Origin: Candidatus Baltobacteraceae bacterium
GTDB lineage: Bacteria > Vulcanimicrobiota > Vulcanimicrobiia > Vulcanimicrobiales > Vulcanimicrobiaceae
Length of the DNA: 64,000 bases
Reading direction: 5' to 3'
NCBI GenBank assembly: GCA_035502855.1
Contig: DATJTX010000027.1
Coordinates: 1 to 64,000 of the forward strand
Part shown: positions 3,124 to 19,765 of the stretch, piece after piece
Position numbering within the stretch: the stretch's first letter is position 1
How the letters are laid out: the number at the start of each line of letters is the position of its first letter
The notes under the pieces: generated by a model
What the model was told of the DNA's origin: nothing
The model's database searches: none
Seen by the model: the letters and a program-made list of their open reading frames with translations, nothing else
Translations under genes and position numbers: made by a program

Positions 3124-4472
3124 GGGCGCACTTCGGCACGGATGGCGTGCGCGGCGTCGCGAACGACGATTTGACGCCGGAGCTCGCCTTTGCGATCGGA
3201 CGGGCCGGCGCAACGGCGCTGGCGCACGAGAGCGAACGGCACCGGCCGGTGATCGTCGGCCGCGACACACGGCTGTCCGGAACGATGCTCGAGGCTGCAA
3301 TCGTGGCGGGCATTACCTCGGTTGGACGCGACGTGCTGCAAGTCGGAATCGTGCCGACACCGGCCGTTGCGCGCATCACCCTGGCGGAGGAGGCGGCGGC
3401 GGGCGTGATGATCAGCGCCTCACACAATCCGATCGCCGACAACGGAATCAAATTCTTCGGCCCCGACGGATTCAAGCTTTCCGACGATCTCGAACACGAG
3501 ATCGAGTCCCTTATGGAACGCGACGATCTGCCGCGTCCCACCGGAGCAGGCGTCGGGGTTGCACGGATCGCTCAAAACCTCGGCAAGCACTATTACGACG
3601 AACTCTACGAAACGGGCGTCGATCTGGGCGGCATGCGGATCGTGGTGGACGGCGCGTTCGGAGCAGCGTACGCCATCGCGCCGTATGCGCTGCGCAAACT
3701 CGGCGCCGACGTGATCGAAATCAATTGCGACAACGACGGTGCGCGGATCAACGTCGAGTGCGGTGCCACGCACCTGGGTCCGCTGCAGGCCGAAGTCGAG
3801 CGGGCACGAGCGCGGAACGATCGGCCCGTGGTCGGCGTCGCGTTCGACGGTGATGCCGATCGTGCGCTCTTCGTCGACGAGAGCGGCGCGATCGTTTCCG
3901 GCGATCACGTGATGTACGCGATCGGACGTTTGTTGCACGAGCGCGGCGAGCTCACGCACGATACGATCGTCGGGACGGTGATGAGCAATATCGGATTCGA
4001 GCGTGCGCTCGCGCGGGTAGGATTGACGCTGATCCGCACGGCGGTTGGCGATCGCTACGTACTCGAACGCATGCAGGCCGGCGGTTTCGTGCTCGGCGGC
4101 GAGCAATCGGGACACGTGATCGACCTGCGCCGTAATACGACCGGCGACGGACCGATGACGGCGGTGACGCTCTTCGGTATTATGTGCGAGAAGAACGTGC
4201 GGTTGCACGATCTCGTGCGCGAGGTCGTCGTCGCACCGCAGGTCCTGGTCAACGTGCGTACGCCGCACAAGGGCGTGCTCGACGTGCAAGAGGTGCGTGA
4301 GGCAATCGTCCGGGCGGAAAGCGCGCTGGCCGGCACCGGCCGGCTCCTGATTCGGCCCTCCGGAACCGAGCCGTTGATCCGGGTCATGGCCGAGGGGGAC
4401 GATCGCGAGACGATCGAGCGGATCGCCGGGGACTTGGCTCGGCGCATCGAGCAAGCTGCCGCCGTTTTGTAA
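3120..4472 (+). CDS. glmM: Phosphoglucosamine mutase GlmM
   Basis: Interconverts glucosamine-6-phosphate and glucosamine-1-phosphate on the way to UDP-GlcNAc for peptidoglycan and LPS. The 450-residue protein shows the phosphoserine loop 'SASHNP' (active Ser101), the Mg-binding loop 'DGDADR' (243-248) and the C-terminal phosphate-binding motif 'RPSGTEPLIRV'. The GTG start overlaps the ybbR stop by 4 bp. GlmM of other bacteria binds CdaA and inhibits it, so the order cdaA-ybbR-glmM is functionally meaningful. The enzyme of the preceding step, GlmS, lies at 37.5 kb. Confidence 0.97.
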   Translation: MRAHFGTDGVRGVANDDLTPELAFAIGRAGATALAHESERHRPVIVGRDTRLSGTMLEAAIVAGITSVGRDVLQVGIVPTPAVARITLAEEAAAGVMISASHNPIADNGIKFFGPDGFKLSDDLEHEIESLMERDDLPRPTGAGVGVARIAQNLGKHYYDELYETGVDLGGMRIVVDGAFGAAYAIAPYALRKLGADVIEINCDNDGARINVECGATHLGPLQAEVERARARNDRPVVGVAFDGDADRALFVDESGAIVSGDHVMYAIGRLLHERGELTHDTIVGTVMSNIGFERALARVGLTLIRTAVGDRYVLERMQAGGFVLGGEQSGHVIDLRRNTTGDGPMTAVTLFGIMCEKNVRLHDLVREVVVAPQVLVNVRTPHKGVLDVQEVREAIVRAESALAGTGRLLIRPSGTEPLIRVMAEGDDRETIERIAGDLARRIEQAAAVL

Positions 4473-4567
4473 AGCCTGAGAAAAAGAGGGGCAGGAGATG
4501 GTCGCCTCGCGGTAAACCAAAAGGCCCAAGCCGTGGGCATAGCCTGCGGTCCCTACGCCTGCACAAG

Positions 4568-4690
4568 AACACTGAATCCGGCGATGGCAGCCGGAGCGGG
4601 GGACTTTCCCGGGATTAGGGGTGAATGGGCCGGTCCGGTCCTAGGGCGATCTTTCCCGTCCGAACCCGTCAACTAACCTCGCAAGTGTCG
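4568..4690 (+). promoter_or_regulatory. c-di-AMP riboswitch (ydaO/yuaA class)
   Basis: Reads as a near-consensus ydaO-yuaA aptamer. Conserved blocks in order: GAGCGGGGGAC at 4604-4614, GGGGTGAAT at 4618-4626, AGGGCGAT near 4643, CCGAACCCGTCA at 4660-4671 and CTAACCTCGCAAG at 4673-4685. A short P1 helix can close it (ACACT at 4569-4573 with AGTGT at 4684-4688). Known members bind c-di-AMP and turn off wall hydrolases and transporters. The downstream gene is an NlpC/P60 hydrolase, the classic target. No terminator fits between aptamer and start codon. A 5-bp hairpin (AAGAG 4694-4698 with CTCTT 4705-4709) overlaps the SD and TTG start, suggesting translational control. Confidence 0.93.
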
Positions 4691-4707
4691 TGAAAGAGGA
4701 GCGTCTC

Positions 4708-5331
4708 TTGCGTCAAGCGTTAGCTATCGGGGCTTTTGCCCTGTTGCTCACCGGGTCGTTTGCCACTGCTGGCGCCGCGACCCCAGGTCCCGCAAAAACC
4801 AGGGCCTTCGATTCGGCCCCAACCAGCCCCGACGTCGCGGAATGGACGTCCCACCTGATCGTCGTCACCAAGTCCGAGCACGGCGCCAAGAACGCCGAGT
4901 TTCGTTCCTTTGCGGGCGGCGTGCTGGCGCGGACCTCACGGATCGCGACCGAGCTCACCCGCAGCGCCCTGAAATTCCTCGGCGTCCCATACGTTTTCGG
5001 CGGCACGACCTCGAGCGGCTTCGATTGCTCCGGGTACGTGCAGCACGTCTTCGCGATGCTCGGGATCAGCCTGCCGCGAACCGCCGACGCGCAGTTCGAC
5101 GCCGGGCAGCGCATCGTGGGCGGCATGCGGCCGGGCGATCTGGTGTTCTTTCAGACCTACGCCCCCGGCGCTTCGCACGTGGGCATTTATCTTGGCCACG
5201 GAAAGTTCGTCCACGCCGCGAGCGAAGGAGTGATGGTCTCGAGCCTGCACGACGCGTATTGGGCGAATCGGTTCATCGGCGCCAAGCGCTTCATCAGCGC
5301 GAAGCAAAAACATCTGCTCGCAACGAGATAA
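4708..5331 (+). CDS. Exported NlpC/P60 cell-wall endopeptidase
   Basis: Peptidoglycan hydrolase of the NlpC/P60 family, cutting gamma-D-Glu/diaminopimelate-type stem peptide bonds. I place the start at TTG 4708 because AGAGGAG (4695-4701) lies 6 bp ahead and the product then begins with a clean signal peptide (residues 1-24). A GTG at 4690 is in frame but lies against the riboswitch. The catalytic domain fills the C-terminal half: Cys107 in 'FDCSGYV', His157 in 'SHVGIYLG' and His169 in 'FVHA'. About 65 residues of linker precede it, with no LysM or SH3 domain. The upstream c-di-AMP riboswitch implies repression or activation by the product of cdaA. Confidence 0.93.
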   Translation: MRQALAIGAFALLLTGSFATAGAATPGPAKTRAFDSAPTSPDVAEWTSHLIVVTKSEHGAKNAEFRSFAGGVLARTSRIATELTRSALKFLGVPYVFGGTTSSGFDCSGYVQHVFAMLGISLPRTADAQFDAGQRIVGGMRPGDLVFFQTYAPGASHVGIYLGHGKFVHAASEGVMVSSLHDAYWANRFIGAKRFISAKQKHLLATR

Positions 5332-5418
5332 ATTAACACACCGACCGAACGCGCCGACGCGGAAGCGCGCAGCGCATCGCTGGCCTACCTCGCATGGCCG
5401 CTGGCGCTCCTCGAAGCG

Positions 5419-5718
5419 GTGACACCGCGGCCGGAGGCATCGGCCTGGTATCGGTTCCACTTGCGGCAAGCCCTTTGGTTCGGCATTCTGTCGACGGCCA
5501 TCGGGCTTGCCGCGTTGCTGTGGCCGCTCGTGCTCAGCCTGGTCGTCGGCGACGTGGTTGCCACCCTCTGGATTTACGGTCTCGCCATCCTGCTCGATCT
5601 CGGGCTCTTCGTCGTATGGCTCGTGCTTGCGATACGCTATAGCCGGCGCGCGGCTCGTGCCGAACTTTTCGACGTGCCATGGGTCGCGCGTATGACAGGG
5701 ACCTCGGTCCGAAAGTAG
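5419..5718 (+). CDS. Small membrane protein, DUF4870/Tic20-like, start uncertain
   Basis: The visible product has two strong hydrophobic segments (about residues 22-45 and 48-72) and the 'YRFHLRQAL' entry typical of DUF4870-type small membrane proteins. GTG 5419 is the first common start codon, but the reading frame is open from 5332, directly after the nlpC stop and in the same frame. The residues it would add ('SLAYLAWPLALLE') look like the missing first membrane helix of this family. The true protein may therefore begin at a rare start (ATT 5332 or CTG 5380), or be made by read-through. Function unknown. Confidence 0.6.
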   Translation: MTPRPEASAWYRFHLRQALWFGILSTAIGLAALLWPLVLSLVVGDVVATLWIYGLAILLDLGLFVVWLVLAIRYSRRAARAELFDVPWVARMTGTSVRK

Positions 5719-5745
5719 TATTGAGGGCCGTTGCTCCGCAATGGG

Positions 5746-5809
5746 GTCGCCGCACGAAGCGGCGACACAACCGGAGCGACAGGATGTCGCGATTTTCGCG
5801 AAGCGAAAA
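5746..5809 (+). repeat. Double-hairpin element beside tRNA-Gln
   Basis: Two strong hairpins lie just before the tRNA: GTCGCCGC (5746-5753) with GCGGCGAC (5759-5766) around an ACGAA loop, and TTTTCGC (5793-5799) with GCGAAAA (5803-5809) around GAA. GGAGC lies between them. A similar layout (GAA-capped hairpin, CGGAGC, GCGAAGCG) occurs at 34336-34383, so this may be a dispersed palindromic element. It could also act on expression of the tRNA. Confidence 0.45.
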
Positions 5810-5813
5810 CCGG

Positions 5814-5885
5814 TGGGGTGTCGCCAAGCGGTAAGGCAGCGGACTTTGAATCCGCCATTCGTTGGTTCGAATCCAGCCACCCCAG
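5814..5885 (+). tRNA. tRNA-Gln (anticodon TTG)
   Basis: Full cloverleaf: acceptor stem TGGGGTG with CACCCCA, D-arm with AAGCGGTAAGGC, anticodon arm GCGGA-CTTTGAA-TCCGC giving anticodon TTG (reads CAA, and CAG by wobble), and T-arm GTTGG-TTCGAAT-CCAGC. The discriminator base is G. CCA is not encoded, so it must be added after transcription. The 72-nt length is normal. It borders the duplicated accessory module, and tRNA genes are common borders of such islands. Confidence 0.96.
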
Positions 5886-5917
5886 GGACTTTATCCGACA
5901 AAGCCGGGGACGGCTTT

Positions 5918-6022
5918 GTCGGGCTAAAGTCGTCGCGGCTTTGCTGACGCAAAGCTCGCGCACTCATCGCTTCGCAGCGCGCAGGCAGCATAGCGGCAAC
6001 AATAGCGTGGTAGAATGCCCTC
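5918..6022 (+). repeat. 105-bp repeat, copy 1, upstream of coiled-coil gene
   Basis: Matches 11357-11461 base for base over 105 bp with about seven substitutions and no gaps by eye. Both copies end with TAGAAT, 6 bp and then ATG of a small coiled-coil gene. TAGAAT (6011-6016) is a good -10 box. Its distance would put transcription at or next to the ATG, so a leaderless transcript is likely. No clear -35 box is seen. The repeat marks the left end of a duplicated module. Confidence 0.8.
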
Positions 6023-6226
6023 ATGGAGCGTGAACCGACGCCGGCGGATCTGATGAACGCGATCCTCGACATGCACGGAGCGATGTCCCAGGGGTTCGCC
6101 CAGGTCGACGCGCGGTTCGGTCGGCTCGAGGCGCGGGTTACTTCGATCGAAGGCGAGATCAGAGGCATTCATCATTGGATCGCACGCAGCGACGCGCGGT
6201 TCGATGCGCTCGAACGGCGCCTTTAA
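6023..6226 (+). CDS. Small coiled-coil protein, one heptad unit
   Basis: 67-residue protein, family A of three in this window. It starts 'MEREPTPADLMNAILDMHG', has one 'FAQVDAR' heptad and ends in a coiled-coil tail 'VTSIEGEIRGIHHW' followed by 'ARFDALERRL'. It has no signal peptide or membrane segment. It resembles many small bacterial proteins of 'xxxVDARF' heptads with no assigned role; oligomerisation is the only thing that can be predicted. No Shine-Dalgarno is visible, and the -10 box lies 6 bp ahead. Confidence 0.72.
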   Translation: MEREPTPADLMNAILDMHGAMSQGFAQVDARFGRLEARVTSIEGEIRGIHHWIARSDARFDALERRL

Positions 6227-6231
6227 CCCTC

Positions 6232-6456
6232 ATGGAGCGTGAACCGACGGCGGCGGATCTGATGAATGCCATCCTCGACATGCACGGCGCGATGTTCCAG
6301 GGATTCGCCCAAGTCGACGCGCGCTTTGCCCAGGTCGACGCGCGGTTCGAGCGGCTCGAGGTGCGGGTCACGTCGATCGAAGGCGAGATCAGAGGCATTC
6401 ATCGCTGGATCGCACGCAGCGACGCGCGGTTCGATGCGCTCGAAGGGCGCCTCTAG
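6232..6456 (+). CDS. Small coiled-coil protein, two heptad units
   Basis: 74-residue paralogue of the preceding gene, beginning 5 bp after its stop. Same N- and C-terminal parts, but two 'FAQVDARF' units in the middle. It has lost the promoter-like TAGAAT because the previous gene's stop region lies there, so it must be translated from the same transcript. The codon-level match shows recent tandem duplication. Its 3' end overlaps the convergent pfpI gene by 4 bp. Function unknown. Confidence 0.7.
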   Translation: MEREPTAADLMNAILDMHGAMFQGFAQVDARFAQVDARFERLEVRVTSIEGEIRGIHRWIARSDARFDALEGRL

Positions 6457-7034
6457 CCGGTCACCGCACCCGCGTTTTTAACGCCTCGATGACGGCTTTG
6501 GCCGTGCTCGCCCTGGATTGCGGGTTCTGACCGGTAATCCACCTTATCGAGTTTGACGGCACGTTCTTCCTCGTCGGTGAAGCACGTGATCGTCTTTCCG
6601 GCGACGAGCGTTGCCGCTTCACCGGTCCGAATCGCATCGACGAACGCCGCCGGTCCATGGCAAACCGCCGCGATGATCTTTCCCTGCGCGTCGAACTCGC
6701 TGAGCAACGTCTTCAGCGGATCGAAGGTGGCAAGATCGAACATCGTACCGTGTCCGCCGGGGATAAAGACGGCGTCGTGGTCGGTTGCATCGCCCGCTTC
6801 GCGCAAGGTTACGGTCTGCTCGAGGTCCTTGCGCGCGAGATCGTTCGGATCGGCGCCCTCGAGACTGCGCGGATCGATCGGTGCGTGGCCGCCGTGCGGC
6901 GTCGCGGTCACGATCTCGAAGCCGGCCTCGCGAAACGCGTGCCACGGGATGCTGTACTCCTCGAGCCAGAGCCCGGTCGGGTGCTCGGCATCGATGCGCG
7001 AGTGCCCGGTCACAATCATGAGAATCTTCGGCAT
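6453..7034 (-). CDS. DJ-1/PfpI family protein with damaged C-terminus
   Basis: DJ-1/PfpI superfamily (glutamine-amidotransferase-like fold; family members act as glyoxalases, chaperones or peptidases). From ATG 7034 it reads 'MPKILMIVTGHS' and has the nucleophile elbow 'AVCHGPAAF'. It is normal up to 'AVKLDKV' near the C-terminus, then turns into unrelated sequence. The usual ending ('TGQNPQS', then 'TAKAVIEALK') is present in the next frame. About 30 residues are missing at the joint near 6540, with a frameshift. The core may still fold, but this is probably a decaying gene. A remnant of a second copy of its 3' end lies near 11730-11760. Confidence 0.8.
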   Translation of the reverse strand: MPKILMIVTGHSRIDAEHPTGLWLEEYSIPWHAFREAGFEIVTATPHGGHAPIDPRSLEGADPNDLARKDLEQTVTLREAGDATDHDAVFIPGGHGTMFDLATFDPLKTLLSEFDAQGKIIAAVCHGPAAFVDAIRTGEAATLVAGKTITCFTDEEERAVKLDKVDYRSEPAIQGEHGQSRHRGVKNAGAVTG

Positions 7035-7089
7035 AGCAATCCGATGATACATGAAATTTCCGTATCAAGAGGCCGGCCGAGAGCTTGAC

Positions 7090-7866
7090 TCATTGCGCGC
7101 GGAGGAAGTGGGCCATGAGCTCGACGCGGCCGTGGAGGCCGAATTTTCGTAAAATCGCGACGACGTATTGATGTGTCGTGCGTGGTGTCAACGAGAGCTG
7201 CCACGCGATTTCACGCTCGGCCATCCCGGTGAGAAGAAGACACAGCACCTCGTGCTCGCGCGGCGTAAGCGAACACGCGGGCGCGAACGCCCGCATCGCC
7301 TCGCGATGAAAGGCGCCGGCGCCGAGGAGAAAAAGATTCAATACATCGCGCTCACGCTCACCGAAGGGTCGAGCGTTGATGCCCCGTTCGAGCCCGATGT
7401 ACGACTCGTGTCGCGTATCGATCGTGTGTGAGCCGAGGAGACGGTCGCCGACGGCCAGTGGACGCAGAATTTCATTGTAGAGCCACGAGTTTTCCCACTC
7501 GTGATCGTCGACGAGCTCGGGGCGCAGGAAAGCGCGAGTGCGCCCGGCGTGCGCAAGGATCGCTTGCGTTTGCGGGTCGACGTCTCCAGCCGCGAAGCGC
7601 GCGGCTTGTTCGGCCACACGGCCGCGGCGCTCAGCGGAAGAATCGAGTTGCGCGGTCGCAACGATACGCCACGCGCGCGGGTCGGTGATGCGCGAGGCTT
7701 CAGCGTCCCGTCGGGCCGCAACCCAAAATCCGTTGGTCGCTCCGATCGTCCGGGTAAGTTCCCGCAGCGCGTGGGCTAGTGCCGCATCGATGTCGGATGC
7801 GGGAAAGTCGGCGAGCTCGCTCCAGATCCGCGAGACGGCGTGCACGTCGCGCTCCGACACATGCAT
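7090..7866 (-). CDS. LuxR-type transcriptional regulator
   Basis: 258 residues. The last 60 form a GerE/LuxR helix-turn-helix ('LTPREHEVLCLLLTGMAERE', then a recognition helix followed by 'VVAILRKFGLHGRVEL'). The N-terminal 190 residues have no receiver Asp pocket and may be a GAF/autoinducer-type sensor, but I cannot name it. It is transcribed away from the lipoprotein gene at 7954. The 87-bp gap holds a perfect palindrome and a promoter, so it probably controls that operon and maybe itself. Pieces of a paralogue survive at 11762-11845. Confidence 0.88.
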   Translation of the reverse strand: MHVSERDVHAVSRIWSELADFPASDIDAALAHALRELTRTIGATNGFWVAARRDAEASRITDPRAWRIVATAQLDSSAERRGRVAEQAARFAAGDVDPQTQAILAHAGRTRAFLRPELVDDHEWENSWLYNEILRPLAVGDRLLGSHTIDTRHESYIGLERGINARPFGERERDVLNLFLLGAGAFHREAMRAFAPACSLTPREHEVLCLLLTGMAEREIAWQLSLTPRTTHQYVVAILRKFGLHGRVELMAHFLRAQ

Positions 7867-7902
7867 CGTCAGGCCGACTTCGGGGGGCTAGCGTGGGGCA
7901 CC

Positions 7903-7916
7903 CTGCTAGCTAGCAG
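7903..7916. promoter_or_regulatory. Perfect 14-bp palindrome, candidate LuxR operator
   Basis: CTGCTAGCTAGCAG is its own reverse complement. It lies between the divergent luxR-type gene and the lipoprotein operon and ends 1 bp before a -35-like TTGCCG, where an activator would sit. The CTG-N8-CAG form resembles lux-type boxes. The nearby GCTAGC at 7888-7893 repeats its core. That LuxR binds here is an inference. Confidence 0.55.
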
Positions 7917-7917
7917 A

Positions 7918-7948
7918 TTGCCGCACGAGTCTCAGCCTCCCACATAAT
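7918..7948 (+). promoter_or_regulatory. Promoter of the mini-lipoprotein/Gly-rich operon
   Basis: TTGCCG (7918-7923) and CATAAT (7943-7948) with a 19-bp spacer. The ATG at 7954 starts 6 bp after the -10 box, so the transcript would start at or beside the start codon, with no Shine-Dalgarno, as also seen for the coiled-coil genes. Confidence 0.5.
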
Positions 7949-7953
7949 AAGCA

Positions 7954-8118
7954 ATGACAGTGCGCTACGCGCTTCCGGCGTTCGCCTTATCCGTGCTGGT
8001 TCTCGCGGCATGCGCGGCGTCACGCGGGTTGATTCCGGGGCCAACGCCGCCGCCGGGAACGGTGGTCCTTTCGTCCGCAAGTATGGCATTCACGGCCGCG
8101 GGCGCGAGCGGTTCCTAA
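7954..8118 (+). CDS. 54-residue mini-lipoprotein
   Basis: Short frame coding a lipoprotein signal (lipobox 'LAAC', Cys20) and a 34-residue tail that ends 'MAFTAAGASGS'. The tail looks like the start of a beta-sandwich repeat that has been cut off. Its stop overlaps the ATG of the glycine-rich lipoprotein (TAATG), so the two are coupled. In copy B the same N-terminus (from 11853) is joined in frame to the second lipoprotein after loss of about 90 bp. It could be a real leader lipoprotein or the stump of a longer gene. Confidence 0.5.
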   Translation: MTVRYALPAFALSVLVLAACAASRGLIPGPTPPPGTVVLSSASMAFTAAGASGS

Positions 8119-9971
8119 TGCGCAATCTTGCATCGGTTGCGCTCGTCGCACTGCTCGCCGGCTGCGGCGGTGGCGGCTCCACGCCGAGCCTTCCCGTGCA
8201 ATCCGTCGCGTCGCCCGCGCCGCAGCCTACGCAACAGTCGCCGCAAAGCGTGAAGGTTTCGTTCAACATCATCGTGCCGACGGCGAGCGGCGCGAGCGCG
8301 CGTCGCGTGCCGAACTACGTTTCAGCGTCGACGAAATCGGCATCGATCGCGGTCGGCAGCGCAATGCCGACCACCGTGAACTGCACGGCGACGTGCAGTG
8401 GGACGGTGAGCGCGCCGGTCGGCAGCGATACGTTTACCGTGAACCTCTACGACGCGACCAACGGCACGGGCAACGTGCTCTCGACCGGAGCATTGACGCA
8501 AACGATCGTCGCGAACACGGCCAATAGCGTGAACGTCACCTTCAACGGTGTCGTCGCGTCGCTGAGCATCGTGCTCGGTGCAAGCGGCACCGCCGGCACG
8601 CCGGCGTTGATTCCGGTCAGCGTCAACGCGCTCGACGCTGACGGGAACACGATCGTCGGGCCCGGCGTGTACGTCAACGCGAGCGACAAGCCGCTAACGA
8701 TCGCTCTCTCGGATTCCGATCCGTCCGGGGCAACGGCGCTCTCGCAAACATCGCTGACGCAACCGACGAGCGGGATCACGCTGACCTACACCGGCTTGGC
8801 GATCACGTCATCCACGATCGGCGGGTCCGCCGCCGGCATTACAACGAGTACAACGAGCTTCACGCCGACGCTGCAGCCGATCGTCGTGACAACGAACGAT
8901 ACGCAAAACCCCGCGTATGCCGGCATCGATTTGTACGCAACGAGCGGCACGGGTTCATCGGCGACGTTCAGCGCCTCCGAAGTCGGGTGGACCAACGCTC
9001 CGTACGACAAGACGCTAACCGTAGCCACGGGGAGCGGATGTGCGAGCATCGCGACCGTCGCGCCGTCGAGCGGGACGTCGTTTACGGCATCGGTTGTTGC
9101 TTCGCCGAGCGCCGGCACATGTACGGCGACCCTGAGCGACGGCGCGGGACAGAGCCAAGCCGCATCGCTCGCGTATACAAGTTTCGTCTACACCGGCGCA
9201 TCGCAGTCCATTACGCTGCCCAGCGGCGTGACCAACGTGACGATCACCGCGGCAGGCGCCCAAGGGGGGACGGCCTGCGTTTGCTCGACCGGCGGTTCCC
9301 CCGGCGCGGGTGGCGAGGGCGGCTCGGTTACCGCAACCCTGGCTGTAACGGCCGGCATGTTGGACGTCTTGGTGGGCGGCGCCGGCGGCACGAGCAGTAG
9401 CGGTTCCGGAGCCGCGGGCGGCTACAACGGCGGTGCGGTGGGCGGCAGTGCTACCGGCTCCGTCGAAGCCGAAGGCGGTGGCGGTGGCGGCGGCGGCGCT
9501 TCCAGCGTTACCGAGGGAAGTACGCAACTTGTCGTTGCCGGCGGCGGAGGCGGGGGGGGGATTGGCGACCCCGGTTGCACCGACGGCGGCGGTAACGGTG
9601 GCTACCCGGACGGTACTGCTGGCCAGACCCCGGGAGATCTGTGTGCCACTGCTGCCGGTGGTGGGGGTGGCGGCACGCAGAGCGCAGGCGGGGGCGGCGG
9701 ACAAAACGGCGGCGGCGGTGGAGGCGCGCGCGGTAGCGCAGGCTCGGCCGGTGCGGGCGGCGCCGGCGGAACCGCTGATAGCGCCAACCTCGTCGTGGGC
9801 GGCGGCGGCGGCGGCGGCGGCTACTACGGCGGTGGAGGCGGAGGCGGCGGCATCACCGAGGGCAGCGCCGGCGGAGGGGCCGGATCGTCGTTCTACATTT
9901 CAACCGCGACGAACGTGACGACACAATCCGGCACACAGAGCGGCAACGGCTACGTGATCATCACGTGGTGA
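8118..9971 (+). CDS. Glycine-rich surface lipoprotein A
   Basis: 617 residues from ATG 8118. Lipobox 'LLAGC' (Cys16), a Pro/Gln linker, then about 240 residues of beta-rich repeats shared almost word for word with the protein at 11958 ('VPNYVSAST', 'GNVLSTG', 'NALDADGNTIVGPGVYVNAS'). The similarity stops at 'LTYT' (near 8790). After that comes a stretch of unique beta structure and a C-terminal glycine-rich domain that opens 'FVYTGASQSITLPSGVTNVT', the signature of GRD-type glycine-rich domains (also found in ALK receptors), with Gly runs and a few Cys. Likely anchored to the outer membrane and exposed. Binding or structural role inferred; no catalytic motif. Confidence 0.83.
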   Translation: MRNLASVALVALLAGCGGGGSTPSLPVQSVASPAPQPTQQSPQSVKVSFNIIVPTASGASARRVPNYVSASTKSASIAVGSAMPTTVNCTATCSGTVSAPVGSDTFTVNLYDATNGTGNVLSTGALTQTIVANTANSVNVTFNGVVASLSIVLGASGTAGTPALIPVSVNALDADGNTIVGPGVYVNASDKPLTIALSDSDPSGATALSQTSLTQPTSGITLTYTGLAITSSTIGGSAAGITTSTTSFTPTLQPIVVTTNDTQNPAYAGIDLYATSGTGSSATFSASEVGWTNAPYDKTLTVATGSGCASIATVAPSSGTSFTASVVASPSAGTCTATLSDGAGQSQAASLAYTSFVYTGASQSITLPSGVTNVTITAAGAQGGTACVCSTGGSPGAGGEGGSVTATLAVTAGMLDVLVGGAGGTSSSGSGAAGGYNGGAVGGSATGSVEAEGGGGGGGGASSVTEGSTQLVVAGGGGGGGIGDPGCTDGGGNGGYPDGTAGQTPGDLCATAAGGGGGGTQSAGGGGGQNGGGGGGARGSAGSAGAGGAGGTADSANLVVGGGGGGGGYYGGGGGGGGITEGSAGGGAGSSFYISTATNVTTQSGTQSGNGYVIITW

Positions 9972-9983
9972 AAGGAGCATTCA

Positions 9984-11357
9984 ATGGGAACGGGTGGTTC
10001 GATAACATTGGTCAACGGCACGACCCACGACTGGCGCAGAACGCATCAGAACTCATACCAAATGGCGGCCTGGGAGTTTCCGCAGGCCATCGCGGCGGGA
10101 ACCGCGCCGAGAATCTATGTCGAGTGGGACGAGCGACTTCTGCACGAGTGGCGTGACGACGTGGGCGAGGTCACCTACGCGATCGGTGATACCGGGCATA
10201 CGTTCCAGGTTCAAGCGAGCGTCAGGGATGGAAAGTACGACGTGCGTATCTATTTCGAGAATCTCGCAACGCAAGGCACTCCGCGCGGGGCGACGCTCGA
10301 CCTGGGATGGGGATACAACGGCGACGTGACTTTCGTTCTGGCGAGCGCCGGCGACGACTTCATTTCGAATACCGTTCCCACGTCCTGGATGCAGAACAAC
10401 CTGGCCATCTTGGGAGATCTCACGCTGCGGCGCCTCTGCATGCCGGGCTCCCATGATGCGGGAATGAGCGTGCTGAATGCTCATACGTTCTTCGGCACCG
10501 CCGCGAACTGTTGCACGCAGACGCATTCCATTCGCAATCAGCTCGAACTCGGGGTGCGTTATTTCGACATCCGTCCGGTCATCAGCGGCGGTCAGTACTT
10601 CACGGGACACTACGGCTATGTCAAACTCCTCAATTCGTGGCAGGGCGCCAACGGCGAATCGATGGCCCAAGTCCTTTCCGCCGTCCGCGACTACACCGCA
10701 AAGCACAAAGAACTGGTGGTTCTGCACCTCTCGCACGAGTTTAACACCGACGTGGCGAACGACCGGTATCGGGTGTTCACCCAGGAGGAATGGGATCGAT
10801 TGCTCGCGCTCGTGCGCGACGAACTAGAAGCGGTACTCTTCATCGCCAAACCTGCGGACGTCGACCTCACCACGTTAAAGCTCAAGGATTTCATCGGCAC
10901 CGGGAAGGCGGCGGTCGTCGTGCGGGTCGATCCGGGGGATGGGAAGGTCGGGCTCGGACGTTTTGCCGGTCAGGGGTTTTATCCGCAGTGCCAGTATCCC
11001 ATCTTCGACCAGTATTCCAACACGGACAACATCGGTCAGATGGCCACCGATCAGCTTTCAAAGATGAAGGCGAATAAACCCGACGGGAAGGCTGCGTGCT
11101 TTTTGCTGGCGTGGACGCTGACGCAGACCGCAGCCGAAGCAGCCGCCGGCTTTCCTCCGATCCTCATGTTGGGACTGCTCGTGAACCCGCGACTCTACGG
11201 CTACCTGTACCCTGCGTGCACGCCCGACTGCTTCCCCAACATCTTGAATCTGGACTGCGTCTCGACATCGACGGTCACGGCACTGGCTATGGCCTTGAAT
11301 GCGCGAGCGGCCCGCTCGGCCGGCCTCCCGTCCGGGAGCGTGGCATCGACGGCGTAG
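9984..11357 (+). CDS. PI-PLC X-domain-like phosphodiesterase
   Basis: 457 residues with strong SD AAAGGAG (9972-9978) just after lipoprotein A. An N-terminal beta-rich domain of about 125 residues (unidentified) is followed by a phosphatidylinositol-specific phospholipase C-like barrel: 'MPGSHDAGM' (catalytic His157), 'LELGVRYFDIRP' and 'TGHYGY' (His209). In B. cereus PI-PLC the two equivalent His residues do general acid-base catalysis. No signal peptide is visible, odd for this enzyme family. The stop codon's last base is the first base of the downstream 105-bp repeat, so the C-terminus may have been trimmed by the duplication. Substrate unknown. Confidence 0.82.
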   Translation: MGTGGSITLVNGTTHDWRRTHQNSYQMAAWEFPQAIAAGTAPRIYVEWDERLLHEWRDDVGEVTYAIGDTGHTFQVQASVRDGKYDVRIYFENLATQGTPRGATLDLGWGYNGDVTFVLASAGDDFISNTVPTSWMQNNLAILGDLTLRRLCMPGSHDAGMSVLNAHTFFGTAANCCTQTHSIRNQLELGVRYFDIRPVISGGQYFTGHYGYVKLLNSWQGANGESMAQVLSAVRDYTAKHKELVVLHLSHEFNTDVANDRYRVFTQEEWDRLLALVRDELEAVLFIAKPADVDLTTLKLKDFIGTGKAAVVVRVDPGDGKVGLGRFAGQGFYPQCQYPIFDQYSNTDNIGQMATDQLSKMKANKPDGKAACFLLAWTLTQTAAEAAAGFPPILMLGLLVNPRLYGYLYPACTPDCFPNILNLDCVSTSTVTALAMALNARAARSAGLPSGSVASTA

Positions 11358-11461
11358 TCGGGCTAAAGTCGCCGCGGCTCTGCCGACGCAAAGCTCGCGC
11401 ACTCATCGCTTCGAAGCGCGCTGGCAGCATGGCGGCAACAATCGCGTGGTAGAATGCCCTC
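11357..11461 (+). repeat. 105-bp repeat, copy 2
   Basis: Second copy of the element at 5918-6022, ending in TAGAAT (11450-11455), 6 bp and the ATG of the third coiled-coil gene. It begins exactly at the stop codon of the PI-PLC-like gene, which places the junction of the duplicated module. Confidence 0.8.
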
Positions 11462-11728
11462 ATGGAGCGTGAACCGACGCCGGCGGATCTGATGAATGCC
11501 ATCCTCGACATGCACGGCGCGATGTCCCAGGGGTTCGCCCAGGTCGACGCACGCTTCGCCCAGGTCGACGCGCGCTTTGCCCAGATCGACACACGCTTTG
11601 CCCAGGTCGACGCGCGCTTCGATCGGCTCGAGGCCCGGGTCACGTCGATCGAAGGCGAGATCAGAGGCATTCATCGCTGGATCGCACGCGGCGACGCGCG
11701 ATTCGATGCGCTCGAACGGCGCCTCTAA
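11462..11728 (+). CDS. Small coiled-coil protein, four heptad units
   Basis: 88-residue third member of the family. Termini match the 67- and 74-residue paralogues; the middle holds four units of the 'FAQVDAR' type (one reads 'FAQIDTR'). Each unit is 21 bp, so length changes in whole heptads and the coiled coil stays in register. A leaderless start is again implied by TAGAAT 6 bp upstream. Confidence 0.72.
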   Translation: MEREPTPADLMNAILDMHGAMSQGFAQVDARFAQVDARFAQIDTRFAQVDARFDRLEARVTSIEGEIRGIHRWIARGDARFDALERRL

Positions 11729-11846
11729 CCGCTCAACGCGCCCGCGTCGTTAACGCCTCGAAATTTTCACAGAATCGCGACGACGATACGACTCGTACCG
11801 CGTATCGATCGGGTGTGATCCGAGCAGGCGATCACCGACGGCGAGC
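11729..11846 (-). pseudogene. Remnants of pfpI and luxR genes (module copy B)
   Basis: Three fused scraps match copy A in order. 11729-11760 matches the pfpI 3' end (6457-6489). 11762-11785 matches 7142-7165, the LuxR recognition-helix region, with three changes. 11787-11845 matches 7400-7460 and, read on the minus strand, still gives 'LAVGDRLLGSHPIDTRYESY' against 'LAVGDRLLGSHTIDTRHESY' of the intact regulator. About 650, 235 and 490 bp have been lost between them. No product is expected. Confidence 0.8.
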
Positions 11847-11957
11847 GAAAAAATGATGGTGCGCTTCGGGCTCCGGGCAATGGCCTTATGCGTGCTCGCA
11901 TTTGCGGCATGCGCGGCATCGCGCGGGTTCGCACCCACCACCGTCGGGAGGTTCGTG

Positions 11958-14345
11958 ATGCGCAACGTTGCCGCGGTCGCGATCGCCGCGCTGCTCGCCG
12001 GATGCGGCGGCGGCGCCACCACGCCGGGCCTTCCCGTGCAATCGGTGACGACGCCGGCGCCGCAGCCCACGCAGCAAAAGGCGCAAATCGTCAGCGTTGC
12101 GTTCACCATCATCGTACCGACGGCGAGCGGTGAAGCGGCACGGCGTGTGCCCAACTACGTTTCTGCGTCGACGCAATCGGCATCGATCGTGGTCGGATCG
12201 GCAACGCCCGTCGTGGTAAATTGCACCGCAACCTGCAGCGGCACCGTGAATGCACCGGTCGGCAGTGACACCTTCAGCGTGGAGCTGTACGACGCGACGA
12301 ACGGCAGCGGCAACGTGCTTTCGACCGGCACTCTCACGCAAACGATCGTCGCGAATACGGCCAACAGCGTGAACGTCACGTTCAACGGTGTGGTGAACTC
12401 GCTCGCCGTCGCGATTGGCAATGTGGTATCGCCGGGCATGGCCGGTTCGGTCGGCGTGACCGTGAACGCGCTCGATGCCGACGGCAACACGATCGTGGGC
12501 CCCGGGGTATACGTGAACGCGAGCGGCGCGCCGGTCACGATCGCGCTGAGCAACTCCGATGCAAGCGGCAACTCGACGCTCTCGCAGACCTCGATCACGC
12601 AGCCGACCACCGGGATCGAACTGACCTACACCGCCGCATTCGATGCGAATCCGACGATCTCGGCAAGTGCAACCGGATTCACCACGGCGAACGCAGCCGT
12701 GCATTTCCCCGCACCGACGCTCACCGCGCTAAGCGCGGTCAGCGGCGTAGCGGGCAATACCGTGAATGAGACCGTAACCGGCACGAACTTCGTGAGCGGA
12801 AACACGAGCATAGCGGCGGGTGCCAACGTCACCGTGAGCAGCGTGAACGTGACGAGTTCGACCTCGTTGACGGCGAGTTTCGTCATCGGCGGCGGCGCGG
12901 CGTTCGGTTCGCAGAACGTGAGCGCCACGACGGGCAACGGAACGAGCGGTACGATTCCGTTCGCGATTGGAACGAGTTCGATCGTCGTTACCGCGATGAC
13001 CGATGCCACACCGGGATCGCCTCCGGGCACCGGCGCCGGTAGCGCGGGGGACTTGCGCAGCGCGATCTTGGCGGCTAATGCCGCGCCCGGCAGCGTGATC
13101 ACGTTCAACTGCGGTTCGCCATGTACGATCCCACTCGGGGGTCCATTACCGCCGATCCAAGCGAACACGGTCATCGACGGTGGAACGTACGGCAGTGTGA
13201 TCATCAACGGACAGAACCTGTATCGCGCATTTTGGGCCGAGAGCGGCACCGTCGTCCTCGCGAATTTGGAAATCGAAAACGCTGCGGCAATCGGTGGTGC
13301 CGGAGCCGTCACCAACGGCGGCGGAGGTAGCGGCGGCGGCGCGGGACTGGGCGCAGGCCTTTTCGTCGACTCCGCGAGCGCCGATGTCAGTCTGATCAAC
13401 GACTACTTCTCCGCCGACAGCGCTACTGGGGGTGCGGGCGGCAAGGCCGCGAGTGGCGGTGGCGGAAACTTCGGCGCCAGCGGCGGAGGCGGGTTGGCCG
13501 GCGTCGGCGGCTATGGTTCTAGTGGCGGCGGCGGTGGCGGCGGGCTCCTCGGCGCAGGCGCGAACACGGTTTCCGCCGGCGGCAACGGCGGTGTCGGTTT
13601 CGATAGCTGCAGCGGTGGCAGCACGGGTGGCACCTCCGCGTCCGGGCAAGTGGGTGGCCAGGGACAGAGCGGAGCCGCTAGCGGGTGCGGCGGCGGCGGC
13701 GGAGGCGAGGGCGGGACGGGGACGGCTGTGGATGTGAACGGCTTTGCCGGCGGCGACGGCGGGAATGGCGCCTTTGGTGCGGGCGGCGGCGGCGGCGGCG
13801 CGGGTGGCAGCTCGTACGGCTCCGCCGCCGGGAGCGGTGCCGACGGCGGGAACGGGGGCTTAGGTGGTTTTGGCGGCGGCGGTGGCGGCGGCGGCGAAGG
13901 CGGCTCGGGCGACACATGCACTTGCGGCGCGGGAAACGGCGGGAACGGCGGACTCGGGGCGAGCGGCGGCGCCGGCGGCGGAGGTGGTGGCGGCGGCGAA
14001 GGCGGCGGCACCGCGAACGGTTCAGGTGGAACGAGCGGCGTGGGCGCCTCAGGAGGCAGCCTTTCGCCCGCCGTCGCTGGGGGTAACGGCGGTTCCCCGG
14101 GCGGTGGCGGCGGTGGGGCGGCAGCGGGACCAGCAATCTTCGTGAATGCGGGGACACTGGTCACCTTCAACAGCGGCGCCGGCGGCTGCACCGCGGCAGG
14201 CGGGGCCGGTGCATCCGACGGCGGCGGTAACGGCGGCTCCGATGCGACGCCGGTCTTCAACTACGGCGGAACGGTGAACGGCGTCACGGTAACGGCGGGT
14301 AACGGCGGCCCCGTTGCAAGCGCACTCGGCTCGACGGTGCCGTAA
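11958..14345 (+). CDS. Glycine-rich surface lipoprotein B
   Basis: 795 residues from ATG 11958, chosen for its SD GGGAGG (11946-11951) and lipobox 'LLAGC' (Cys16). The frame also opens at 11853, which would add a second, upstream lipoprotein signal ('LAFAAC') left over from the mini-lipoprotein. It shares about 240 residues with lipoprotein A. It then has an IPT/TIG-like segment ('TVTGTNFVSGNT'), a 'DLRSAILAANAAPGSVITF' stretch typical of right-handed beta-helix surface proteins, and about 300 residues in which helix rungs carry long Gly-rich loops. Likely outer-membrane anchored surface protein. No enzyme motif seen. Confidence 0.82.
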   Translation: MRNVAAVAIAALLAGCGGGATTPGLPVQSVTTPAPQPTQQKAQIVSVAFTIIVPTASGEAARRVPNYVSASTQSASIVVGSATPVVVNCTATCSGTVNAPVGSDTFSVELYDATNGSGNVLSTGTLTQTIVANTANSVNVTFNGVVNSLAVAIGNVVSPGMAGSVGVTVNALDADGNTIVGPGVYVNASGAPVTIALSNSDASGNSTLSQTSITQPTTGIELTYTAAFDANPTISASATGFTTANAAVHFPAPTLTALSAVSGVAGNTVNETVTGTNFVSGNTSIAAGANVTVSSVNVTSSTSLTASFVIGGGAAFGSQNVSATTGNGTSGTIPFAIGTSSIVVTAMTDATPGSPPGTGAGSAGDLRSAILAANAAPGSVITFNCGSPCTIPLGGPLPPIQANTVIDGGTYGSVIINGQNLYRAFWAESGTVVLANLEIENAAAIGGAGAVTNGGGGSGGGAGLGAGLFVDSASADVSLINDYFSADSATGGAGGKAASGGGGNFGASGGGGLAGVGGYGSSGGGGGGGLLGAGANTVSAGGNGGVGFDSCSGGSTGGTSASGQVGGQGQSGAASGCGGGGGGEGGTGTAVDVNGFAGGDGGNGAFGAGGGGGGAGGSSYGSAAGSGADGGNGGLGGFGGGGGGGGEGGSGDTCTCGAGNGGNGGLGASGGAGGGGGGGGEGGGTANGSGGTSGVGASGGSLSPAVAGGNGGSPGGGGGGAAAGPAIFVNAGTLVTFNSGAGGCTAAGGAGASDGGGNGGSDATPVFNYGGTVNGVTVTAGNGGPVASALGSTVP

Positions 14346-14390
14346 TCGAGACATAAAGGGACGTTAATCCGAAAAGCGCAAAGCGCGCGT

Positions 14391-17698
<3,308 letters not shown>

Positions 17699-17702
<4 letters not shown>

Positions 17703-18454
17703 TCTTCGGTGGCGATGGCGCTCACGATCCAGAAATCGAACGTGAGCGACCGGTCGATGAAATAGGCTTCCGGTATCCAGAAGAAGCCGTCGTCGGCGAA
17801 GCGCTTCCCAAGTGAATTGCGCGCCAGGAATCGTTTCTTCGCGCGATCGTAGCCGACGCAGATCAGGGCGTGTCCGGTTATCGGGCGATCGCTCGGGCGC
17901 GGCAGGCGCAGCACGCCCGTGTGCGCGGCTTCGCTGAAGGTCTCCACGTACGCTTCGACGCCGAAGACGAACGGGTTTCGCTGCGCGAGGGCTGCGTAGA
18001 GATCGTCGAGATTGCGCGCGATGCGGCGGTAGGACGCGGGGCGCACGTGCGCGTGCGCGTAGCACGGGTGCGGCGGCGTCGCGAGCACGTTCGCATCGAG
18101 GTAGCGCCACATCCGTTCGGGGCACGCGCCGAAGCGCGCGGCTGCCTTGATCGCGGTGCGCAGGGTCGTACCGCAATCGGTTTGCTGCTGGCGCTTGGCT
18201 TTGCGCGCGTTGAAATACATGAAGAGGCGAGAGGGGCCCGGAATCGGCCGGCGGTCGCGGTTCGCGATCAACGTGAAGGTCGAGGCGAGCGCGTTGGCGC
18301 TGCAGCTTTGGATGTGGCGCTGCTGATAGACCTCACCGCACCAGGCCGAGAGATCGACCGCACGCGGAAGGCGCGCGATGCTTGGCCGGAACCGGCGGTC
18401 GCGTGCGTCGGGTTCGTCGCGCCGGCTGCCGGGATGAAATTTCACTCCTGCCAT
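17699..18454 (-). CDS. Papain-like (C1 family) cysteine protease
   Basis: 251 residues. 'PRAVDLSAWCGEVYQQRHIQ' then 'SCSANALA' is the papain-type active-site entry, with catalytic Cys in the 'SCSANA' stretch. The His is in 'GHALICVGYD' and the Asn in 'ARNSLG'. There is no propeptide or clear signal peptide, so it is likely a cytoplasmic or unconventionally exported form of C1-type peptidase as found in many environmental bacteria. The start at 18454 overlaps the divergent ATG at 18453 (CATG); GTG 18445 is an alternative. Substrate unknown. Confidence 0.85.
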
Positions 18455-19430
18455 GAACCGCCCATTCGATATGGGTTCGCGGCAAGCCGCTACGCTGCAC
18501 GTTACCAACGGCGACACGGTCGTGTATTTGTTCAAGAAGGCCGGCATCGTGGGGACGCACCTGCCGTGGCGCGATGGGCTGCACGAAGGCCCGGTGCCGG
18601 CGGTCTCCACGCTCGAGGAGCTGAGCCGAATCCGCGGGGAGTACCTGGCTTCGCGCAACTTCGGAAACCCGATCAAGCTGTTGCATGAGCTCGCGACGCG
18701 TGATGCGGTGCTGCATCGTGCCGAGGAATTCCGCGAAGTCATCCTCTGGTTCGAGCACGATCTTTACGACCAACTTCAAATGCTGCAGATTCTGGTCGAG
18801 CTGGACGCGCTTGCACTCGAACCGGGCCGGGTGAGCGTGGTGCAGAGCGACGCATATTTGGGCAGCATGACCGTCGACGAACTCCTTGCGCTCTATCCTC
18901 GCCGCCGGACCGTCACCACCGCGATCTACGATGCGGCGCACCTCGCCTGGGACGCGCTGCGCGCCGAAGATCCCGCCGGTCTGCTGCTGCAGAGCCAACG
19001 CGATGCCGCCGGGCTGCCGTTCATGCGCGCCGCGTTGCGGCGGCTGTGCGAGGAGTATCCCTGGAGCAGCGACGGGCTGTCGCGCTCGCAGCGCCAAGCC
19101 CTCGCGGCGATCGCGCAGGGACCTGCCCGTATCGACGAACTCTTCACGCGCGCACAGGCGCGCGAAGAAGCGCCGTTCTTGGGCGACCTCGCGTTCGCCG
19201 CGATCGTGCACGACTTGCAAAGCGAACCCGCGCCGCTGGCCCGGATCGAGAACGAGACCTTCGAACTGACCGCGCTTGGCCGTTCGACTCTTGCCGGCGG
19301 CGAGGACTGGCTTGCCGTACAGCCGATCGACCGCTGGATCGGCGGCGTTCACCTCACCCCGGAGCGAGCCTATCGCTGGAACGACGGGAGCGAAAGGTTT
19401 AGCAAGGGACCGGCAACGGTAGACTCGTGA
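18453..19430 (+). CDS. DUF1835-type protein
   Basis: 325 residues. The N-terminus 'LHVTNGDTVVYLFKKAGI' followed by 'WRDGLHEGPVP' is the hallmark of DUF1835, a family of unknown biochemical role. A helical domain and a winged-helix-like C-terminal part ('SRSQRQALAAIAQGPARIDE') follow. ATG 18453 and ATG 18471 are both possible starts; the second still keeps the whole DUF1835 motif. It overlaps the next gene by 4 bp (GTGA), suggesting an operon with the NTF2-like protein. Confidence 0.82.
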   Translation: MNRPFDMGSRQAATLHVTNGDTVVYLFKKAGIVGTHLPWRDGLHEGPVPAVSTLEELSRIRGEYLASRNFGNPIKLLHELATRDAVLHRAEEFREVILWFEHDLYDQLQMLQILVELDALALEPGRVSVVQSDAYLGSMTVDELLALYPRRRTVTTAIYDAAHLAWDALRAEDPAGLLLQSQRDAAGLPFMRAALRRLCEEYPWSSDGLSRSQRQALAAIAQGPARIDELFTRAQAREEAPFLGDLAFAAIVHDLQSEPAPLARIENETFELTALGRSTLAGGEDWLAVQPIDRWIGGVHLTPERAYRWNDGSERFSKGPATVDS

Positions 19431-19765
19431 CATTCCGCGAGCTGATCGAGGAACTCGTCGGCGCCTGGCAAGCAAACGATGCATTGCGAGCTTGCGCGTT
19501 CTTCGCTCAAGAGGGCCTTTACCATGAATCAGGCCGCGAGCCGCTGCTCGGCCGCGATGCGATCTTGGCACACTTCGCGCGCTTTTTTCGCGACGGTCCC
19601 GCATGGCGATTCGAAATCGACGACGTGATCGTTGAAGGCGATCGCGCTGCGGTTTCGTATACGTTTGCAACCAACAACGACGGCACGTGGCGCACGCGCG
19701 CCGGGTGCGCGCTCGTTCGGCGTGAAGGCGACTCGATCGTGCAATGGCGCGAGTATCACGGGTAG
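19427..19765 (+). CDS. SnoaL/NTF2-like small protein
   Basis: 112 residues with the SnoaL-type cone fold pattern: an N-terminal helix 'LVGAWQANDALRACAFFA', 'YHESGREPLLGRDAILAHF', and a beta sheet ending 'IVQWREYHG'. Members are isomerases, hydrolases or ligand binders, so no reaction can be assigned. GTG start inside the preceding gene's stop (GTGA). Confidence 0.8.
   Translation: MTFRELIEELVGAWQANDALRACAFFAQEGLYHESGREPLLGRDAILAHFARFFRDGPAWRFEIDDVIVEGDRAAVSYTFATNNDGTWRTRAGCALVRREGDSIVQWREYHG

Follow-up and report, generated by a model that had tools for sequence, protein, structure and literature searches.

A decayed segmental duplication and a chimeric lipoprotein gene downstream of tRNA-Gln in an Eremiobacterota genome

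Genes downstream of tRNA-Gln

The draft genome analysed in this study measures 3.33 Mb in 39 contigs (97% completeness), and the window takes up the initial 64 kb of one of these, the 105-kb contig G000:C27. A tRNA-Gln(TTG) gene, found by ARAGORN at 5814..5885 on the plus strand, forms the left anchor of a variable interval in which a series of genes is present in two versions, referred to here as copy A and copy B. Copy A starts inside a hairpin located after the tRNA gene, with the upstream region of a coiled-coil gene (5909..6022, plus strand). It continues on the same strand with the open reading frame cc1 (6023..6226; 67 aa, one QVDARF heptad) and a tandem second coiled-coil gene, cc2 (6232..6456; 74 aa, two heptads). 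On the minus strand follow a broken gene of the DJ-1/PfpI family, pfpI (6453..7031; Pfam DJ-1_PfpI, 2e-13), and an open frame of 258 aa for a LuxR-type regulator (7090..7866; Pfam GerE, 5e-13). Back on the plus strand, copy A ends with a remnant of a small Ig-like lipoprotein gene, slp (7954..8118; 54 of about 141 codons), and the large lipoprotein gene lipA (8118..9971; 617 aa), which encodes the lipobox LLAGC, an Ig-like domain and a glycine-rich end.

Copy A is separated from copy B by a gene with weak matches to PI-PLC-X (9984..11357, plus strand), for which a relative was found in one of 59 other genomes, with 35% identity, and whose stop codon falls in the 10 bases at the start of copy B. 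The latter begins with the upstream region (11348..11461, plus strand) and the coiled-coil gene ccB (11462..11728, plus strand; 88 aa, four heptads), followed on the minus strand by a scrap of the 3' end of pfpI (11729..11761) and two luxR scraps (11762..11785 and 11787..11845, the second from the region of codons 133-157). A scrap of slp with the signal peptide and lipobox only (11853..11929) and the large lipoprotein gene lipB (11958..14345; 795 aa) close it on the plus strand.

The pfpI gene of copy A could be compared with an intact orthologue in G001, the one congeneric genome covered by the search (74% complete, locus on a short contig). The alignment indicated that about 95 bp were missing near 6543 and that a frameshift removed the conserved C-terminal part of the copy A protein. 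For the LuxR-type protein, we found no relative over its full length in the nearest genomes, only two distant matches among 149 genomes of the phylum, and no close relative in named GTDB genomes.

Collinear copies and the direction of copying

Comparison of 5701-9990 with 11300-14400 by BLASTN gave five blocks in one order and orientation, as expected for a segmental duplication: 5909-6232/11348-11735 (E 6e-101), 6227-6489/11457-11761 (E 7e-88), 7400-7458/11787-11845 (85%, E 2e-13), 7953-8030/11852-11929 (78%, E 5e-13) and 8110-8793/11950-12633 (77%, E 1e-147). Thus the stretch 5909-8030 and the first lipoprotein codons are repeated in the same order at 11348-11929 and beyond, and the left edge of the duplicated segment is at 5909. 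The preliminary description of this DNA had proposed that the same gene order occurs twice and that pfpI and luxR decayed in copy B; this central idea proved right. It had also stated that a lack of collinearity outside the coiled-coil and lipoprotein genes would speak against it, and the alignment gave the opposite result.

Of pfpI and luxR, copy B holds pieces of 24-59 bp, whereas the source carries both genes at greater length. The pfpI scrap is identical to 6457-6489 at 28 of 33 positions, and the two luxR scraps match 7142-7165 at 21 of 24 and 7400-7458 at 50 of 59 positions. Their alignment scores, 33 for the shorter and 73 for the 59-bp luxR scrap, exceeded the maximum of 31 obtained with 200 dinucleotide shuffles, and all three scraps had been placed by the earlier description to within 1 base. 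Judged from the block coordinates, the pfpI-luxR part of copy B is shorter than that of copy A by deletions of about 650, 230 and 490 bp. The duplicated pieces differ between the copies by 8% for the region upstream of the coiled-coil gene (92% identical, and present nowhere else in the genome) up to 22% for slp. Since most of the confidence intervals overlap, one event is the likely, though unproven, origin of all pieces.

The coiled-coil gene, present twice in copy A and once in copy B, differs in the number of QVDARF heptad units, from one to four, and gave only sub-threshold coiled-coil matches in Pfam and NCBIfam. In the aligned codons, cc1 and ccB were 92.5% identical, with 12 differences at 48.5 synonymous sites vs 3 at 152.5 nonsynonymous sites (Fisher p 3e-6), and a synonymous excess was also seen between cc2 and ccB (p 0.016). 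This supports the earlier view that these genes are kept, under purifying selection. The accompanying suggestion, that selection kept the coiled-coil genes and not the regulator or PfpI, holds for its first part; the contrast with PfpI is doubtful, since the pfpI of copy A has itself lost about 95 bp and its frame. In a comparison of parentage, the sites of ccB were mixed between cc1-like and cc2-like.

The direction of copying could be read from the related genomes. In G001 the gene order is glmM, NlpC, DUF4870-like, tRNA-Gln, pfpI, C1-peptidase-like and DUF1835-like, and the locus is collinear with 4001-5922, 6471-7036 and 17716-19755 of the window. Its interval contains a single pfpI after tRNA-Gln, no coiled-coil genes, and nothing from luxR through the tricorn-like protease gene (14391-17702), so that of the sequence at 5923-17715, between tRNA-Gln and the C1-peptidase-like gene, all but pfpI is extra in our genome in comparison to G001. 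As pfpI lies beside tRNA-Gln also in G001, and copy B joins the end of pfpI to the coiled-coil gene exactly as copy A does, copy A is the source and copy B its decayed copy. The coiled-coil gene of G001 sits elsewhere, and one of its flanks alone was matched in the window's genome, on another contig.

The outgroup genera add to this picture. The NlpC and tRNA-Gln genes are adjacent in ten further genomes of the family. How far the DUF1835-like gene lies from tRNA-Gln differs among genera: only 22 bp separate them in G014, about 2 kb at most in G010 and G003, and about 12.6 kb in the window, which indicates that the extra DNA is a gain of the lineage to which our genome belongs. The search of related genomes for a single-copy version of the full module, suggested in the preliminary description, returned none: the loci with a related lipoprotein all occurred without luxR and pfpI, and at just one of them a coiled-coil gene of weak similarity followed the lipoprotein gene at a distance of about 1.4 kb.

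We also noticed an intergenic stretch of about 40 bp in G001 (L070:1119-1160; TTGTCATCCCGAGCGTAGCGCAGCG...) that has at least eight similar scattered copies in the window's genome, and hence is a dispersed repeat.

The small and large lipoproteins

In the same genome, the large lipoprotein gene C22 is preceded by an intact slp of about 141 residues, with only a few bases between the two, and the slp-lip pair was conserved at eight of ten loci from other metagenome-assembled genomes. The mini-lipoprotein N-terminus noted earlier is therefore present in both copies as described, but is a truncated remnant of this Ig-like lipoprotein. The internal deletions of slp differ among copy A, copy B and C10, a further large lipoprotein locus of the genome, which points to repeated, separate losses of slp. 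An Ig-like domain similar to that of slp was also found within the body of lipA (8796-9200; 33% identity, E 6e-14). In copy B, the slp scrap is in frame with lipB over 11853-11957, and translation from 11853 might therefore yield a longer, fused lipoprotein; a GGGAGG motif resembling a ribosome-binding site precedes 11958.

The large lipoproteins belong to a family with at least ten members in this genome; close homologues were located in metagenome-assembled genomes, several of them Candidatus Eremiobacterota. We found no paper on these lipoproteins. The signal peptides of both lipA and lipB carry the lipobox LLAGC. Pfam and NCBIfam contained no matching domain, and a sequence search with lipB against solved structures gave nothing. 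The AlphaFold2 model of lipB (mean pLDDT 66) consisted of beta-sandwich-like domains at residues 44-344, a glycine-rich stretch of low confidence and a short ordered end. With this model, most Foldseek matches were to multi-domain proteins of Ig-like type, at low TM-scores, which inform about the class of the fold only. Taken together, lipA and lipB are probably surface lipoproteins in which Ig-like domains in tandem are combined with a glycine-rich region, and their gene family probably recombines. The dN/dS of the lipoproteins over the N-terminal domain was 0.17-0.31. Elsewhere, several paralogues of this family lie in tandem at G025:C27:3153-12958.

According to the preliminary description, both ends of copy B had stayed intact and the two lipoproteins had diverged only in their C-terminal halves. 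Neither statement was borne out, as the body of lipB belongs to another subfamily, that of C10 and C22, genes located elsewhere in the same genome, and groups with these and with homologues from other genera. The body of lipB was 76-80% identical in DNA to C10 and C22, and lipB could be aligned over its full length with both of them and with the other-genus homologues, whereas lipA could not. The end-to-end relative of lipA was a different gene, in G033 from another genus (49% over 617 residues). Past codon 235 or so, lipA and lipB matched in DNA as glycine-rich low-complexity sequence only.

The relationship changes along the N-terminal domain. Over its 237 residues lipB was 82% identical to C10, 78% to C22 and 73% to lipA. 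In codons 1-50, however, lipB was closer to lipA (80% codon identity vs 63-65% for C10 and C22), and dS in this part was 0.40 for the lipA-lipB pair vs 0.72-1.7 for the others. In codons 51-100 lipB was equally distant from both types, and from codon 150 it was 84-94% identical to C10/C22 vs 60-65% to lipA. Along the gene, identity of lipB to lipA falls from 80% in codons 1-50 to 60-65%, and that to C10 goes from 64% in codons 1-50 to 75, 89, 94 and 88%; C10 and C22 remained 84-93% identical throughout. A 3SEQ-like permutation of informative sites identified lipB as a mosaic of lipA and C10 or C22 (p 5e-5) and placed the changeover near codons 75-85. The AU test rejected lipA and lipB as sisters in codons 151-236 (p 0.0017) and 237-420 (p 8e-8). 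For codons 1-50 with distant outgroups, all three topologies had AU p of at least 0.39, and the kinship of lipA and lipB in this part is suggested by identity, dS and the linked upstream scraps.

Apart from codons 1-50 in the outgroup tree test, the parts of lipB thus have different nearest relatives beyond chance, and the gene is a chimera, A-like from codon 1 to about 50-85 and of C10/C22 type in the remainder. A shorter patch of C10/C22-like sequence was detected in lipA at about codons 53-116 (permutation p 0.0004-0.009).

Probable history and its alternatives

The best explanation of these results, to which we assign a probability of about 0.8, is that the interval grew, that copy A gave rise to copy B, that copy B decayed, and that lipB became chimeric by recombination. 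The interval between tRNA-Gln and the conserved pair of C1-peptidase-like and DUF1835-like genes would have gained extra genes in this Eremiobacterota lineage. One stretch, reaching from the hairpin and the coiled-coil gene over pfpI, luxR and slp into the first part of lipA, would then have been duplicated to a place about 5.4 kb downstream. There, three or more deletions would have shrunk pfpI and luxR to scraps, and one more would have taken most of slp. The signal peptide and linker of lipB would stem from the copied segment and its body from a lipoprotein of C10/C22 type; homologous recombination would have fused the two within the N-terminal domain, which is conserved in this multigene family. 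Copying and formation of the chimera were probably linked, one end of the copied segment being homologous and the other not. The most economical version is that recombination with a gene of C10/C22 type set the end of the segment within the N-terminal domain of the lipoprotein.

The main competing account takes two steps: a complete lipA was duplicated, and the body of the copy was overwritten later by gene conversion from a C10/C22-like paralogue. The same mosaic pattern would be expected, and the C10/C22-like patch of lipA suggests that gene conversion does occur within the family. However, an additional step is needed, and the replacement must reach the stop codon, where A-type and C-type bodies share little sequence, so that we consider this account possible but rather unlikely. 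If, on the other hand, the whole module with an entire lipoprotein gene had been duplicated and the lipoproteins had diverged later in their C-terminal halves only, the 73% identity of the N-terminal 235 residues and their collinearity with the other blocks would be explained. The higher identity of lipB to C10 and C22 over practically the same residues (78-82% over 237), its full-length alignment with them, the refutation of a lipA-lipB pairing by the AU test for codons 151-420 and the separate full-length relative of lipA in G033 leave very little room for such a history.

It is still harder to see the coiled-coil gene and its upstream region as a mobile cassette inserted twice independently, with the luxR and pfpI scraps arising by chance. 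The position of the coiled-coil gene elsewhere in G001 and the scattered occurrence of related coiled-coil genes are in its favour, but the scraps are arranged and oriented as in copy A, none of the shuffles reached their scores, and the upstream region is found at only these two genome sites. An artefact of assembly or binning could be suspected in a draft genome of 39 contigs and 97% completeness; it is just as implausible, as the copies differ by 8-22%, share one 105-kb contig and have different neighbours.

In the preferred history, copying with decay and recombination, the processes involved are all already known and the kind of event is ordinary; what is unusual is the clarity of its traces, and the outgroup arrangement makes most of the steps readable. 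As in other bacterial segmental or tandem duplications followed by pseudogene decay, the copies are collinear, one is cut to scraps, and open genes are kept at the ends. Unlike in these, the right end of the copy enters a gene of another subfamily and yields a chimera. Mosaic surface-protein paralogues formed by gene conversion have been described for trypanosome VSG genes (PMC3708902) and malaria merozoite surface proteins (PMC10919680), where, as here, surface-type paralogues share patches of different ancestry in one open frame; on our side the comparison is based on four family members of one genome compared in detail. The locus thus offers an outgroup-ordered example of a surface-type lipoprotein family from an uncultured phylum that seems to make chimeric genes, and neighbouring paralogues with similar N-termini do not necessarily originate from the same duplication. 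As a far more speculative idea, which we regard as improbable, the large lipoproteins of Eremiobacterota could form a recombining repertoire that swaps signal-peptide/linker cassettes and Ig-like or beta-rich bodies from locus to locus, the tRNA-Gln interval being a place where novel combinations arise.

The interval also resembles a genomic-island hot spot at the side of a tRNA gene, with a variable length (22 bp vs about 12.6 kb) and lineage-specific genes inserted beside the tRNA. It differs in that no integrase was found among the main proteins encoded at 5886-17715, a search for a second copy of the tRNA 3' end as an att direct repeat gave none, and the resident pfpI lies inside.

At the right end of the interval, the gene at 14391-17702 encodes a tricorn-like protease with PD40, Tricorn_C1, PDZ and S41 domains. 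Among 40 genomes searched, relatives with 59-72% identity were present in only eight other genera, and the remaining matches were distant paralogues at about 30%.
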